A stretch of 20,027 nucleotides of DNA from a virus. This document shows positions 10,994 to 19,494 of this stretch, piece by piece. Every line of letters starts with the position of its first letter. Position 1 is the stretch's first letter. The stretch covers positions 1-20,027 of IMG/VR virus record IMGVR_UViG_3300036715_000324; one strand, given 5' to 3'. Below the pieces are notes generated by a model. It was given only the letters and a program-made list of their open reading frames with translations. It had not been told where the DNA came from and ran no database searches. The position numbers were made by a program, and so were the translations under genes.

Positions 10994-11965
10994 TTAACAG
11001 TTGGTATAATCAAAGTTTTGTAAATATAGCTCAGCATATCGTTTATCAGTACTAAGAATATCGTGAATGTCGTTAGCTACATCTTGGATTTCAAGTTGAG
11101 CATGGGAATCTGTGCGGCTAATTATCAATTTAGCCCAAGAAGCGATAGACCCAGTAAAGATAATACTAGTCTCCATAGCTTGAGGTAATACAAATCTGGC
11201 TTGCTCAGGTGCTACACCATCAGCAATCATGTTATCATACAAAGCTAAATCTTCTTTATAGCTATACTGCATAGCATTGATCCACATAGTACTATTAGGA
11301 TGCTCTCCAGCACTACCTTGTTTAACACTACCTTCTGGTTTAGAACGTAGCGAATCAAATAGATGTACTGTAGGACTAGCAGATACATATCTACGACTAA
11401 TCTCATTAGTATCAAACATGCGGTGTGTAAATAGTTGTCGAGCTACAGGAATAGCACATGTAATACGTAAGCTTACATCTACCATTTCAGCTGTTAAAGA
11501 TGAACTAGAATTAGGAATATATCTTTCACGCTGTGCTGGCAAAACCAAATCCGCATTATAAGTTAACTTATAAGCTTCATTTACATATTTCAAAGTACTC
11601 ATATCTAAGAGTAATTTAGCAATACGATTACTGGCGAGATTGTTTAGTTGTCCTGATTGGATTAAACGAACCCATCCGTAATAAGAGGTACGAAACAGTA
11701 ATGTCTGTTCTGCTTTAGAATAATCCCATACAGCTCCTCTTAACAATGTTGGATCTGTGATAACTTTAAAGTCGATATCATTTTCATTAAGTAAGAATGT
11801 AAGCCTTACGTGGAAGAATGGACTAATGTGTTTATTAGTAGCAAGATATTTAATCAATCCTGCATCTCGTTCTTGAGGTTCTGTGCTCCACTTATCGAAA
11901 CTAACTCTAGCTACATTTGCGATAAATGTATCATCGTGAGTATTTTCAAGTAATTCTACTTTCAT
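10994..11965 (-). CDS. thyX: Flavin-dependent thymidylate synthase (ThyX), deviant signature motif
   Basis: ThyX methylates dUMP to dTMP using methylene-tetrahydrofolate, FAD and NADPH. Family marks in this 323-residue protein are ARVSF at 19-23, KYLATNKHISPFFHV (H46), the signature region at 180-193, ARFVLPQAMETS near 256-267, and SRTDSHAQLEIQDVA near 283-297. The usual signature RHRxxSxNExSxRY reads THRMFDTNEISRRY here: the first Arg is Thr180 and the first Ser is Asp185, while H181, R182, N187, E188, S190 and R192 are kept. The protein is longer than the usual 220-270 residues. The start is ATG 11965 in an ATGA overlap with the preceding gene, with AAGGA 6 nt upstream. It is probably active in dTMP supply; the motif changes leave some doubt. 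Confidence 0.92.
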   Translation of the reverse strand: MKVELLENTHDDTFIANVARVSFDKWSTEPQERDAGLIKYLATNKHISPFFHVRLTFLLNENDIDFKVITDPTLLRGAVWDYSKAEQTLLFRTSYYGWVRLIQSGQLNNLASNRIAKLLLDMSTLKYVNEAYKLTYNADLVLPAQRERYIPNSSSSLTAEMVDVSLRITCAIPVARQLFTHRMFDTNEISRRYVSASPTVHLFDSLRSKPEGSVKQGSAGEHPNSTMWINAMQYSYKEDLALYDNMIADGVAPEQARFVLPQAMETSIIFTGSIASWAKLIISRTDSHAQLEIQDVANDIHDILSTDKRYAELYLQNFDYTNC

Positions 11966-14153: not shown

Positions 14154-14571
14154 GGTTGTACTCCTTAACTGCTGTTATAAGTTGATTCCTTACTAAATCC
14201 TCATGTATTACAGTTTTAAGTTTATTCAGCAATACCAGTATAGTTATAAAGTGGTGGTATAAGAAGAAGTGTGTTGGTGCAGGTGCATCTGGTGTAGGTA
14301 CTCCAAAAATAGAAGCTTCTACTAATTCAGGTATAGACCTATCTAAATAGCACTCATCTTTGAATACCTGCCTAAGTCTGTGCATAGCTACAGTGGTGTA
14401 CCCCATAATAGTAGATCCCTGCTTCATAGGTATGAGCAATTCGTACTGACTTCTGGATATGTTATAAAGTTCTCCGTGAGGTATTACACCCAACTTCACA
14501 TAAACATCTAGATGCTGTATGGTTTCAATATACAGCTCTGCAAATGTTTTAATCTTTGATTTACATTTCAA
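14131..14571 (-). CDS. Hypothetical protein, 146 residues, TTG start
   Basis: Not recognised. The start is probably TTG 14571, 7 nt after AAGGGG; the first in-frame ATG is 49 codons later. The first 11 nt overlap the end of the metallopeptidase/VWA gene. The N-terminus is basic (KCKSKIKTF). A Pro-rich turn (VPTPDAPAPTH, about residues 91-101) is followed by a hydrophobic stretch FFLYHHFITILVLLNKL near 102-118, which could be a membrane-associated or buried helix. It is followed by a TTG-started gene, so two neighbouring genes share the unusual start codon. Function unknown. Confidence 0.72.
   Translation of the reverse strand: MKCKSKIKTFAELYIETIQHLDVYVKLGVIPHGELYNISRSQYELLIPMKQGSTIMGYTTVAMHRLRQVFKDECYLDRSIPELVEASIFGVPTPDAPAPTHFFLYHHFITILVLLNKLKTVIHEDLVRNQLITAVKEYNLEIQSAS
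14151..14166 (-). promoter_or_regulatory. Ribosome binding site AAGGAG deciding a TTG start
   Basis: On the minus strand AAGGAG (14161-14166), a seven-base spacer and TTG (14151-14153) form an optimal Shine-Dalgarno and start pair within the end of the upstream gene. It supports TTG rather than ATG as the start codon of the 120-residue gene. Confidence 0.75.
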
Positions 14572-15670
14572 TAATAGTCCCCTTCTTAATATAACTACTT
14601 GTACCTCCTGGGATAATTAGGAAGATAGTATTATCTTGAGGGGGTGTGTAATTAGAAAAATAACCATCTGTAAGAATGATAGTGATACTTTCATCTTTCA
14701 TGTACTCATCTAAACATGTAGGATCAGTACCTCCTCCTCCCATAGGCATTAAGTCCTCTTTAATAGAACTATAGTGGTTAGGGTCGATAGACTGCACATG
14801 AGATGCTGTATCCCACCAGATAACATCTAAACTCTCTGGAGGCATTGAGGAAGCTAAATAAGCTACTTCACTAGCAGCTTCTGCAATAGTCTCTTCTGTA
14901 ATAGATCCAGAAGTATCAATACAGAAATTGACATGCTTAGCAGCCATAGATACAGTTCCAGGTAAGTAGAAGCCCATAGATAGGTACACAGTGTTTACTC
15001 GTGACCAACTAGTATCATCTTTACCAGGTACTGTTGTAGACCACTCAGCTTGTAGTAGTTCCTTCCAATCTCGTTTAACTGCTAAAGCATTCTGTAAATC
15101 TCTAGCACGATTAGCTGGTAACATTCCTGCAGCTTGTCGAATAGCTAAATCTAATTCATTAGAATCTTTAGCAGATAAAGCTGCACCATGTTGATGCTCA
15201 TCAGCACCATTACCAGATCCTGGTTGATCATCATCATCACTCTCAGGATCTACTTCAATTACATGAAATACTTGAGGAGTGCTCATACCAGTATAATCAA
15301 AGTTAGTCTCATAGCCAGAAGGCAATTCTACTTTGAATGTGATAGAGTTCTGAACAATTTCGTTATTAACTACAAGATCCATAGCTTTATCAGCTTTCTT
15401 CTTATCTAGACGTACTAGACCTTCCCATAAATGCATATGTTGATATGCTTTATGTAAGCCTTCGTGTAATAGGATAAAGTTGATCTCTTGATCTGAATGG
15501 CTATCTAACCATTCTGGATTATAGAGTACATCTAAACCATCTGTTTTAATGGTTTTGGTATCTTCACTTGGTACTAATTTACCAGTTTTTAATACACCAC
15601 CTAGAAATCCCCAATCAGGGGACATCATAATTCCTACCAATGACTTGGTAACACGTTGTTCAATCTTCAT
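14561..15670 (-). CDS. DUF2201-like putative metallopeptidase with VWA domain (N4 gp25-like)
   Basis: This 369-residue protein joins a zincin-like N-terminus to a VWA-like C-terminus. ILLHEGLH gives the HExxH site (H69, E70, H73), followed by the family stretch KAMDLVVNNEI (95-105). Residues 140-165 are an acidic, Gly-rich linker. The C-terminal domain keeps a full metal-ion adhesion site: DTSGS (D252, S254, S256), GGGTDP (T315) and LTDG (D335). Proteins of this build pair with MoxR ATPases, and the MoxR gene lies two genes upstream here, as in N4 (gp24/gp25). Peptidase activity is inferred, not known. Start ATG 15670 overlaps the preceding gene by 11 nt, with AAGGA some 10 nt upstream. Confidence 0.88.
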   Translation of the reverse strand: MKIEQRVTKSLVGIMMSPDWGFLGGVLKTGKLVPSEDTKTIKTDGLDVLYNPEWLDSHSDQEINFILLHEGLHKAYQHMHLWEGLVRLDKKKADKAMDLVVNNEIVQNSITFKVELPSGYETNFDYTGMSTPQVFHVIEVDPESDDDDQPGSGNGADEHQHGAALSAKDSNELDLAIRQAAGMLPANRARDLQNALAVKRDWKELLQAEWSTTVPGKDDTSWSRVNTVYLSMGFYLPGTVSMAAKHVNFCIDTSGSITEETIAEAASEVAYLASSMPPESLDVIWWDTASHVQSIDPNHYSSIKEDLMPMGGGGTDPTCLDEYMKDESITIILTDGYFSNYTPPQDNTIFLIIPGGTSSYIKKGTIIEM

Positions 15671-16547: not shown

Positions 16548-17597
16548 TTAACCAGCTAAGTACATAGCGTTTTCTTTAACCCAAGTAGAGACTACAGGGT
16601 GACGTAGTACGTTACGCTTTACATGCATAGGAGCATTACGAGCTAACGAACTAAATGCTACAGCACTAACCTCTAATGGGTAGCGAGATAGGTACTCTAC
16701 GACTGCTGTACAGCTCTCTGTGTCATCATTAGCTGTAAGTGTCTGTAATGCACCATAAGCCATAATTAGCTGAGCAGCAACACTTGTAGGAACTGAAGTA
16801 CCCTTAGGATCAGCCATTACAACTTTCCAACTAGGCAATTGATCAGCTAATTGGATATAAGCCATAATATCTGCAGCCGCAGATGCACCAATAGTACCTA
16901 CTAGAGCTTGATGCAATGTATTACTATCCAACTTATCACGTTTAGAAATAATACGACTAGCTTTATCTAAACTACGAGGACTTACAAACTGCTTGTTATT
17001 AGTCTTTGGATTGAATGTGTATGGGTTATCCTGCTCACCTTCACTAAGAGCATGAGGAAACTGATTAACCCAAGCCATAACGATAGGATCTACACCTGCA
17101 CCAGAAGCCCAGTTACACCAAGCATCTACACCAGGTTTGTCCATATGTACTTCAGTAACACGGTTAAGCATATGTGCAGGAAAACTATCACCTACACCAT
17201 CCTTAGATTGGTTACCTGTAGCGAATACAATAGATCCCTCTGGTAACTTATAAGCACCAATTTGTTTATTCAACAATAGGCGTGTAAATAGCAGACGAGT
17301 AGTAGCATTAGATTTACTTAACTCATCTAACATAATTACTTTAGGACGTGGATCATTGACTCCCCAACTAGAGTTAGTAGCAAAGTAAGATACACCATCT
17401 TCTACATATGGTAACTGTACATCAGGAACATCATTTACTGGGCAATCAATGTAGATAAATTGATGATTGTTTAATTCTGGAGCTTCTTGTAAGTAGTCTA
17501 AAATAGAGCTTTTACCTGTTCCTGGCTCACCTACTACTAAGTAAGTAATGTCTGTACCAGTGTTTAGAATAGCGTTAGCAACTTGTTGGATGTTCAT
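16548..17597 (-). CDS. MoxR-type AAA+ ATPase (N4 gp24-like)
   Basis: This 349-residue ATPase belongs to the AAA+ class with MoxR features: Walker A GEPGTGKS (23-30), Walker B VIMLDE (D91, E92), sensor 1 FATGNQ (N129) and an arginine-finger candidate R146 in AHMLNRV. The C-terminal 200 residues would hold the helical lid (FVSPRSLDKASRI fits the usual sensor-2 start) and are more divergent. MoxR proteins use ATP to remodel or insert metal into targets presented by VWA-domain partners, and such a partner is encoded two genes downstream. Start ATG 17597 has AAAGG about 9 nt upstream. The target in the phage cycle is unknown. Confidence 0.9.
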   Translation of the reverse strand: MNIQQVANAILNTGTDITYLVVGEPGTGKSSILDYLQEAPELNNHQFIYIDCPVNDVPDVQLPYVEDGVSYFATNSSWGVNDPRPKVIMLDELSKSNATTRLLFTRLLLNKQIGAYKLPEGSIVFATGNQSKDGVGDSFPAHMLNRVTEVHMDKPGVDAWCNWASGAGVDPIVMAWVNQFPHALSEGEQDNPYTFNPKTNNKQFVSPRSLDKASRIISKRDKLDSNTLHQALVGTIGASAAADIMAYIQLADQLPSWKVVMADPKGTSVPTSVAAQLIMAYGALQTLTANDDTESCTAVVEYLSRYPLEVSAVAFSSLARNAPMHVKRNVLRHPVVSTWVKENAMYLAG

Positions 17598-18300: not shown

Positions 18301-18537
18301 TCAATTATCCTCTCTACTATTCCTAACTGAATCAACATAAGCATATGCCTCCTCTTCTAACATGTCATAGTAACTCTGTTGAATTAGACTAGTAATACGT
18401 GTATCACCTACATAAATATTTAGGTAATCAATTTGATACTCTCCAGGAATACGAGTATCCATAGAAGTATTAGCCTCAATAAACAGTGTTACACCATGAA
18501 ATACTGTTTTAAACTCGAATGTCTCAGTGACTGTCAT
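18301..18537 (-). CDS. Small acidic protein, 78 residues
   Basis: Not recognised. The first half is beta-like (FEFKTVFHGVTLFIEA, YQIDYLNIYVGDTRIT) and the rest is an acidic helix (YYDMLEEEAYAYVDSVRNSRE). The start is ATG 18537 in an ATGA overlap with the preceding gene, so translation is likely coupled to it. There is no metal or nucleotide motif. The fold looks like a small phage-specific alpha/beta unit. Confidence 0.72.
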   Translation of the reverse strand: MTVTETFEFKTVFHGVTLFIEANTSMDTRIPGEYQIDYLNIYVGDTRITSLIQQSYYDMLEEEAYAYVDSVRNSREDN

Positions 18538-18785
18538 AACTCGGTTGCCTTTGGTTTGGTAGGAGCTTTAATAACTACTTTATTCCAGAATAAAGACTGG
18601 ATCAAATCAGGGCAATAACAGCCCTTTAACGTATAATAACTATGAACATCATTATTGAAAAAACGTACATAAATAGGACGTCTACTAAACAAGTCTTCTA
18701 TATACTCAATTTCACCCCATCCGTATGTAGGAGAGTATACTTTATCGCCAATCTTGGCGGTTTCAAACGTTGTAATTGTTGACAT
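18534..18785 (-). CDS. Small phage protein, intact paralog of the interrupted gene at 19015-19494
   Basis: This 83-residue protein starts at ATG 18785, since AAGGTGG lies just upstream; a GTG at 18794 is in frame too. It shows GDKVYSPTYGWGEIEYIE near the N-terminus, then PIYVRFFNND and DLIQSLFW. The first 60 residues look like a small beta-barrel (SH3/KOW-like by appearance only). The same elements recur in the frame at 19015-19494: TTFE, VxSPxY, WG, FFNN and QSLFW. This copy ends soon after QSLFW and lacks the second domain present in the other. Function unknown; the pair is best explained by duplication within the phage lineage. Confidence 0.78.
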   Translation of the reverse strand: MSTITTFETAKIGDKVYSPTYGWGEIEYIEDLFSRRPIYVRFFNNDVHSYYTLKGCYCPDLIQSLFWNKVVIKAPTKPKATEL

Positions 18786-18829: not shown

Positions 18830-19030
18830 TTACTTATTTGAGCATGATTTAATTAACATATCTTTAATTTTTTTATAATCAGTTTGAGCTGAGATTTTAT
18901 ATTCATATGCAATAGTAATCTCTGGCTCCTTATTAAAGTACTTTATCGTAATGTATAAACCATTATGGATACTAATAGCCTTAACTTGGTGTAGTGATAT
19001 GATTGTTCTTGATGCTAATTCGATGAACAT
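18830..19030 (-). CDS. Small beta-rich protein, 66 residues
   Basis: Not recognised with confidence. The start is ATG 19030 with GGAG 7 nt upstream, 16 nt inside the end of the interrupted gene. The product has short beta strands (MFIELASRTIISLHQVKAI, GLYITIKYF, EITIAYEYK) and a C-terminal helix (YKKIKDMLIKS), a compact barrel-and-helix outline. Overlap with the C-terminal reading frame of the interrupted gene suggests that coupling to that frame may matter for its translation. Confidence 0.72.
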   Translation of the reverse strand: MFIELASRTIISLHQVKAISIHNGLYITIKYFNKEPEITIAYEYKISAQTDYKKIKDMLIKSCSNK

Positions 19031-19494
19031 TGCTTTACTCCTAGTAATGCTTTTGCATGTAAAATTGCTGCCGATTTACCTTCTTCTGTAAATGGATAAC
19101 ATAAGCAATTCTCGACAAGGTGACTAATGTCGTCAGGATTGTCACATTGTGTACCAATATATAGCTTCGGAATGATTGGTACGGGTAGGTAACAAAAGTC
19201 TCCATAAGAGGGAATAAAAGAAATATCTGGAACTTTAACACCGTTGATACTTTTCATAGGTGTAGGTTCTTTCTTAACATCAGAAATTACCTCACACCAA
19301 AATAAAGACTGTTCTTGCAAATCTTCTGAGTATCCAGTAAATGTAAAGCTCCTAGTATTTTTATCAACATTATTGAAGAAACTTACTATGATAGGGTATT
19401 TACTATTCGCATCTATTTGTTAAATTTTTCCCCAACTGTAAATAGGTGAAAAAACTGTTTCCCCTACTTTAGAATTTTCAAATGTGGTTGTCAT
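19015..19494 (-). pseudogene. Two-domain phage gene interrupted by an in-frame TAA at codon 25
   Basis: ATG 19494, with GAGG upstream, opens a frame that meets TAA at 19422-19420 after 24 codons and then runs in the same frame to TAG at 19015. Read through, it is 159 positions long. The first 70 residues match the intact gene at 18534-18785 on both sides of the stop: TTFE, SPxY, WG before it and FFNN, QSLFW after it. The stop falls where the paralog has Glu; TAA is one base from GAA. The C-terminal half (from about residue 75) holds YGDFCYLPVPIIPKLYIG and a final helix TEEGKSAAILHAKALLG like those of other phage small proteins. It may be a nonsense mutant, a readthrough gene (TAA is followed by CAA), a C-terminal protein restarted from TTG 19320, or a sequence error. 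Confidence 0.75.

Follow-up and report, generated by a model that had tools for sequence, protein, structure and literature searches.

Stop codons are recoded by some phages, and UAA is generally regarded as the tightest bacterial stop. The TMV-type readthrough motif is UAG CAR YYA, and the CARYYA element is also able to stimulate readthrough of UAA in plant-virus systems (PMC3542737). N4-like phages have genomes of ~70-75 kb. The window (the whole 20,027-nt stretch analysed, from IMG/VR record IMGVR_UViG_3300036715_000324) contains a frame, termed copy A, which is interrupted by TAA with CAA as the next codon and stays open beyond it. An earlier note on this DNA had offered four explanations, namely a fresh nonsense mutation, programmed readthrough, a split gene or an error. 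We conclude, with a probability of about 0.9, that in an N4-like phage with three paralogous copies of an accessory gene, one copy carries the TAA as a nonsense change of a single base that is private to this contig. Of the four explanations, the fresh nonsense mutation and the sequencing or assembly error survive, and readthrough and the split gene are unsupported.

Results

The phage and its paralogous frames

Judging by its gene content, the phage is N4-like (Schitoviridae). The primase-like protein is 47% identical over its full length to that of Escherichia N4-like phages, e.g. PhAPEC7 and G7C, and matches were also obtained to the N4-like RNA polymerase (PHROG 2166), an AAA ATPase, a VWA-type protein, DNA polymerase and terminase. 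The near-identical N4-like phage contig IMGVR_UViG_3300035180_000246 from IMG/VR (hereafter G001) measures 73,858 bp, which agrees with the genome size of this group. A VWA-like metallopeptidase-type protein and an AAA ATPase (14561-15670 and 16548-17597) form a pair, as in N4-like phages; the PHROG label 'HNH endonuclease' at 14561-15670 is at odds with the sequence, which contains a DTSGS motif. When the last 5 kb of the window was searched as DNA against the phage collection, no match was returned.

Translation of the minus strand from 19494 to 19015 confirmed that a TAA at codon 25 is followed by 134 open codons, as the earlier note had read (Table 1). The frame begins with ATG, runs for 24 codons to the TAA, continues for 134 sense codons and ends with TAG; it reads MTTTFENSKVGETVFSPIYSWGKI, then the stop at codon 25, then QIDANSKYP...KQCSSN and the terminal stop. 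A random frame of the same base composition would stay open over 134 codons with a probability of ~3e-5.

Table 1. Features of the copy A region and the second differing site, in window coordinates.
Feature	Position	Strand	Description	Basis
Copy A	19015..19494	-	Frame of 160 codons, broken at codon 25; family with SH3/Tudor-like domain plus C-terminal module	
In-frame TAA	19420..19422	-	GAA (Glu25) in IMGVR_UViG_3300035180_000246; the single differing base is 19422	
N-terminal domain	19258..19494	-	Residues 1-79: predicted beta barrel of SH3/Tudor-like type, with linker	Model, Foldseek
C-terminal module	19018..19257	-	Residues 80-159, first codon an in-frame ATG; shares homology with a section of S349_35 from Shewanella phage 3/49	
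Downstream ORF	18830..19030	-	MFIELA..., 16-bp overlap with the end of copy A	
Copy B	18534..18785	-	Intact 83-aa paralog, N-terminal domain only	
Other difference from G001	11936	-	ThyX codon 10: CAC (His) in the window, CAA (Gln) in G001	

The proposed homology between copy A and copy B (18785-18534) is far above chance. Across 75 residues the two share 48-49% identity (E 4e-15 in a search inside the window), and their alignment score is 141, against a mean of 26.9 and a maximum of 59 in 1000 shuffled comparisons. A third, full-length paralog, copy C (155 aa, 47% identical), lies beyond the window at 24354-24818 of G001 and starts ~2.1 kb upstream of copy A. Profile searches recovered more copies in three 3300037010 contigs, one further 3300035180 contig and one Comamonas MAG contig. 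The copies form one unannotated gene family, with three copies in G001 and up to seven matching stretches in contig G002. Neither Pfam nor PHROGs provided a usable family assignment for copy A, copy C or the G002 ortholog. In 50,697 phage records, a tblastn search with copy A detected no homolog at E 0.01.

In G002 and G004, the related copy is likewise followed by a homolog of the ORF downstream of copy A. The CSSN residues that copy A shares with the G004 copy past the stop of the latter were considered and set aside; on inspection of the sequence, they are explained by the start of the overlapping downstream gene.

A near-identical contig differs at two bases

An IMG/VR scan with the 134 post-stop residues matched one contig, G001, with 100% identity over those residues, and a DNA pattern with codon 25 left open also matched G001 alone. 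No other near-identical contig was found in IMG/VR, and one contig cannot show fixation of the stop allele in its own population. The whole window corresponds to positions 3181-23207 of G001 in the same gene order, and base-by-base comparison showed 20,025 of 20,027 positions to be the same, with differences at 11936 and 19422 only. The latter changes the first base of codon 25, which is GAA in G001 and TAA in the window, in agreement with the earlier claim that the stop aligns with a Glu and is one base from GAA. Copy A in G001 is an intact 159-aa gene in one continuous frame. A single-base G/T change on the coding strand would have turned Glu25 into the stop.

Relatives were compared at this site in ten intact homologous frames from six contigs (G001 to G005 and the Comamonas MAG contig), with copy A taken as in G001. 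The codons are GAA, AAA, GAG, CAT, GAT, GAG, GAC, GAT, GAA and CAG, which encode E, K, E, H, D, E, D, D, E and Q; the site is sense in 10/10. Among the sequences compared, the TAA is private to the window.

Both differences between the window and G001 are G/T-type transversions that change the protein, and none is synonymous (n=2). Random coding substitutions in these genes would be nonsense in 5% and synonymous in 21% of cases, and GC-to-TA changes in 10% and 6%. At these stop frequencies it is not surprising that one of two substitutions is nonsense, and the lack of a synonymous change is as expected of changes unfiltered by selection, or of errors, with n only 2. The relatives gave no direction for the change at ThyX codon 10.

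We give even odds to a genuine mutation, either very recent or segregating in the phage population. The other branch of the best explanation, to which we assign a substantial but less than even chance, is a sequencing or assembly-consensus error, with the true base at 19422 as in G001. Just two positions differ over 20 kb, this site among them, and both are G/T-type transversions of the kind that random base errors or oxidation of the DNA would give. The site also lies ~600 bp from the end of the window contig, where coverage would often be poor. However, real variation between samples just as commonly produces differences at a rate of 1e-4, and the other difference is located mid-contig. Plain decay of copy A was rejected; there is no second disabling change, and the frame is otherwise that of the intact G001 allele. 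The clean conservation past the stop therefore indicates a change that is too recent for decay, or an error. The earlier note had argued that the second half is still used or was broken very recently; the recency stands, with a base error as the alternative.

Domain organization and copy loss

A confident structure model from ten sequences contains two domains (pLDDT 84.7), the order of which relative to each other is uncertain (pTM 0.50); with only three sequences as input, the model had been poor (pLDDT 45.7). In the ten-sequence model, the stop falls within predicted strand 2 (residues 20-27) of a small beta barrel formed by residues 1-66. Translation of copy A would end after 24 residues, within this first domain, and the TAA allele would be null for the full-length protein. 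The nearest solved folds to residues ~10-60 in Foldseek were PsaE, the UvrD C-terminal Tudor, PWWP and CarD (E 0.1-0.5, probability 0.84-0.99), none of which is significant. Copy B matched the Pfam family CarD_TRCF_RID at E 0.12, below the cut-off, and a PDB sequence search with the family profile returned chance-level matches only.

The module of residues 80-156 is shared with unrelated phages, Shewanella phage 3/49 among them, in which it follows different N-terminal parts. Its earlier description as a conserved Cys-rich domain was not borne out, and only the Cys of an LCY motif recurs across relatives. The TAA allele could represent a step to a split gene in which translation from an in-frame ATG, codon 80, continues to supply the C-terminal module. 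This ATG, at 19257, is located exactly where the predicted C-terminal domain starts; elsewhere among phages the module is joined to different N-terminal partners, and some copies (copy B and one in G005) consist of the N-terminal domain alone. However, Met80 is missing from some full-length relatives, and inspection of the sequence upstream of it revealed coding residues and no strong ribosome-binding site. The N-terminal-only copies end past the whole first domain rather than at codon 25, and no stand-alone C-terminal gene was found. We therefore consider such a step very unlikely, and as an established arrangement the split gene is not supported, given the continuous frame in near-identical G001. 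The related proposal that the TAA is a real segregating variant that parts the two modules, with the C-terminal one produced alone from the codon-80 ATG as a snapshot of domain splitting, is just as improbable.

The family is a dispersed, expanding, multicopy accessory family of N4-like phages, and some of its members are broken. One copy on the minus strand of G002 (62465-62925), a related phage, is frameshifted at the Trp-Gly motif in a G run, with ~125 conserved residues after it. The case resembles that of copy A, and this frameshift might be a homopolymer or assembly error. In another (G002:60218-60524, minus strand), the N-terminal domain is intact and the C-terminal half has decayed by a stop and frameshifts, a likely route to N-terminal-only paralogs such as copy B. 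The family thus gains as well as loses copies and tolerates the loss, so a fresh nonsense allele is unremarkable. Loss of copy A may be buffered by the intact copies B and C. The early stop might also reduce translation of the overlapping downstream gene.

A relative at 1366-1773 of the 4.8-kb Comamonas MAG contig (JAHAYB010000120.1) combines the same N-terminal domain with a different C-terminal half. This contig may itself be phage.

Readthrough and recoding of the stop

Programmed or leaky readthrough of the TAA would yield two products, a peptide of 24 residues and a protein of 159. The open, conserved frame past the stop and the CAA that follows are both consistent with this, as is the stimulation of UAA by CARYYA in plant-virus systems (PMC3542737). 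However, the stop is conserved in none of the ten homologous frames, and the frame past it has stayed open owing to the newness of the change, given that G001, which is 99.99% identical, has GAA. The CAA is the ordinary Gln26 codon, which also stands beside GAA in G001, and is not a selected context. The site reads UAA CAA AUA (CAA ATA in DNA) and so lacks the YYA part of the motif. UAA is the stop generally regarded as the tightest in bacteria, and 13 of the 26 window genes normally terminate with TAA. Judging by the model, a short form that ends inside a beta-strand at residue 24 would be functionally implausible. No ochre-suppressor tRNA was found in G001; the tRNAs recovered were tRNA-Met(cat) and tRNA-Arg(tct) only, neither of which has a TTA anticodon. 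The earlier reading of a TMV-type stop-CAA context is not supported by these data, and readthrough is extremely improbable.

Reassignment or suppression of TAA in the phage or its host has its precedent in the phages that recode stops, and its probability here is negligible. The terminator usage and the tRNA content argue against it in the same way, and all 26 frames are stop-free in G001 under table 11.

Discussion

The stop in copy A is an ordinary one, an isolated fresh mutation or an error and not a new mode of gene reading. A change that is too young, or a base error, can mimic recoding through the conserved frame past the stop, and a single near-identical genome settles the question of recoding. 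The wider gain is small and consists of an unannotated, modular, multicopy gene family that N4-like phages carry and in which copies are often lost.

Two comparisons bear on the modules of copy A. The barrel shows a weak fold likeness to SH3/Tudor-like RNA-polymerase binders (the UvrD/PcrA C-terminal Tudor and the CarD RID), but the scores of the PsaE and PWWP domains are just as good. The best, though doubtful, proposal for the function is an accessory factor in which the predicted barrel would bind the host or phage transcription machinery like UvrD-Tudor and CarD. The C-terminal module is homologous to that of Shewanella phage 3/49 S349_35 (phrog_18768; hhalign E 6.8e-12, residues 79-156), whereas the N-terminal half of S349_35 differs from that of copy A and the gene occupies an unrelated position among tail genes.

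The resemblance of the stop itself to a TMV-type site lies in the CAA that follows it. The TMV-type site combines UAG with YYA, whereas copy A, in a bacterial virus, combines a non-conserved UAA with AUA.
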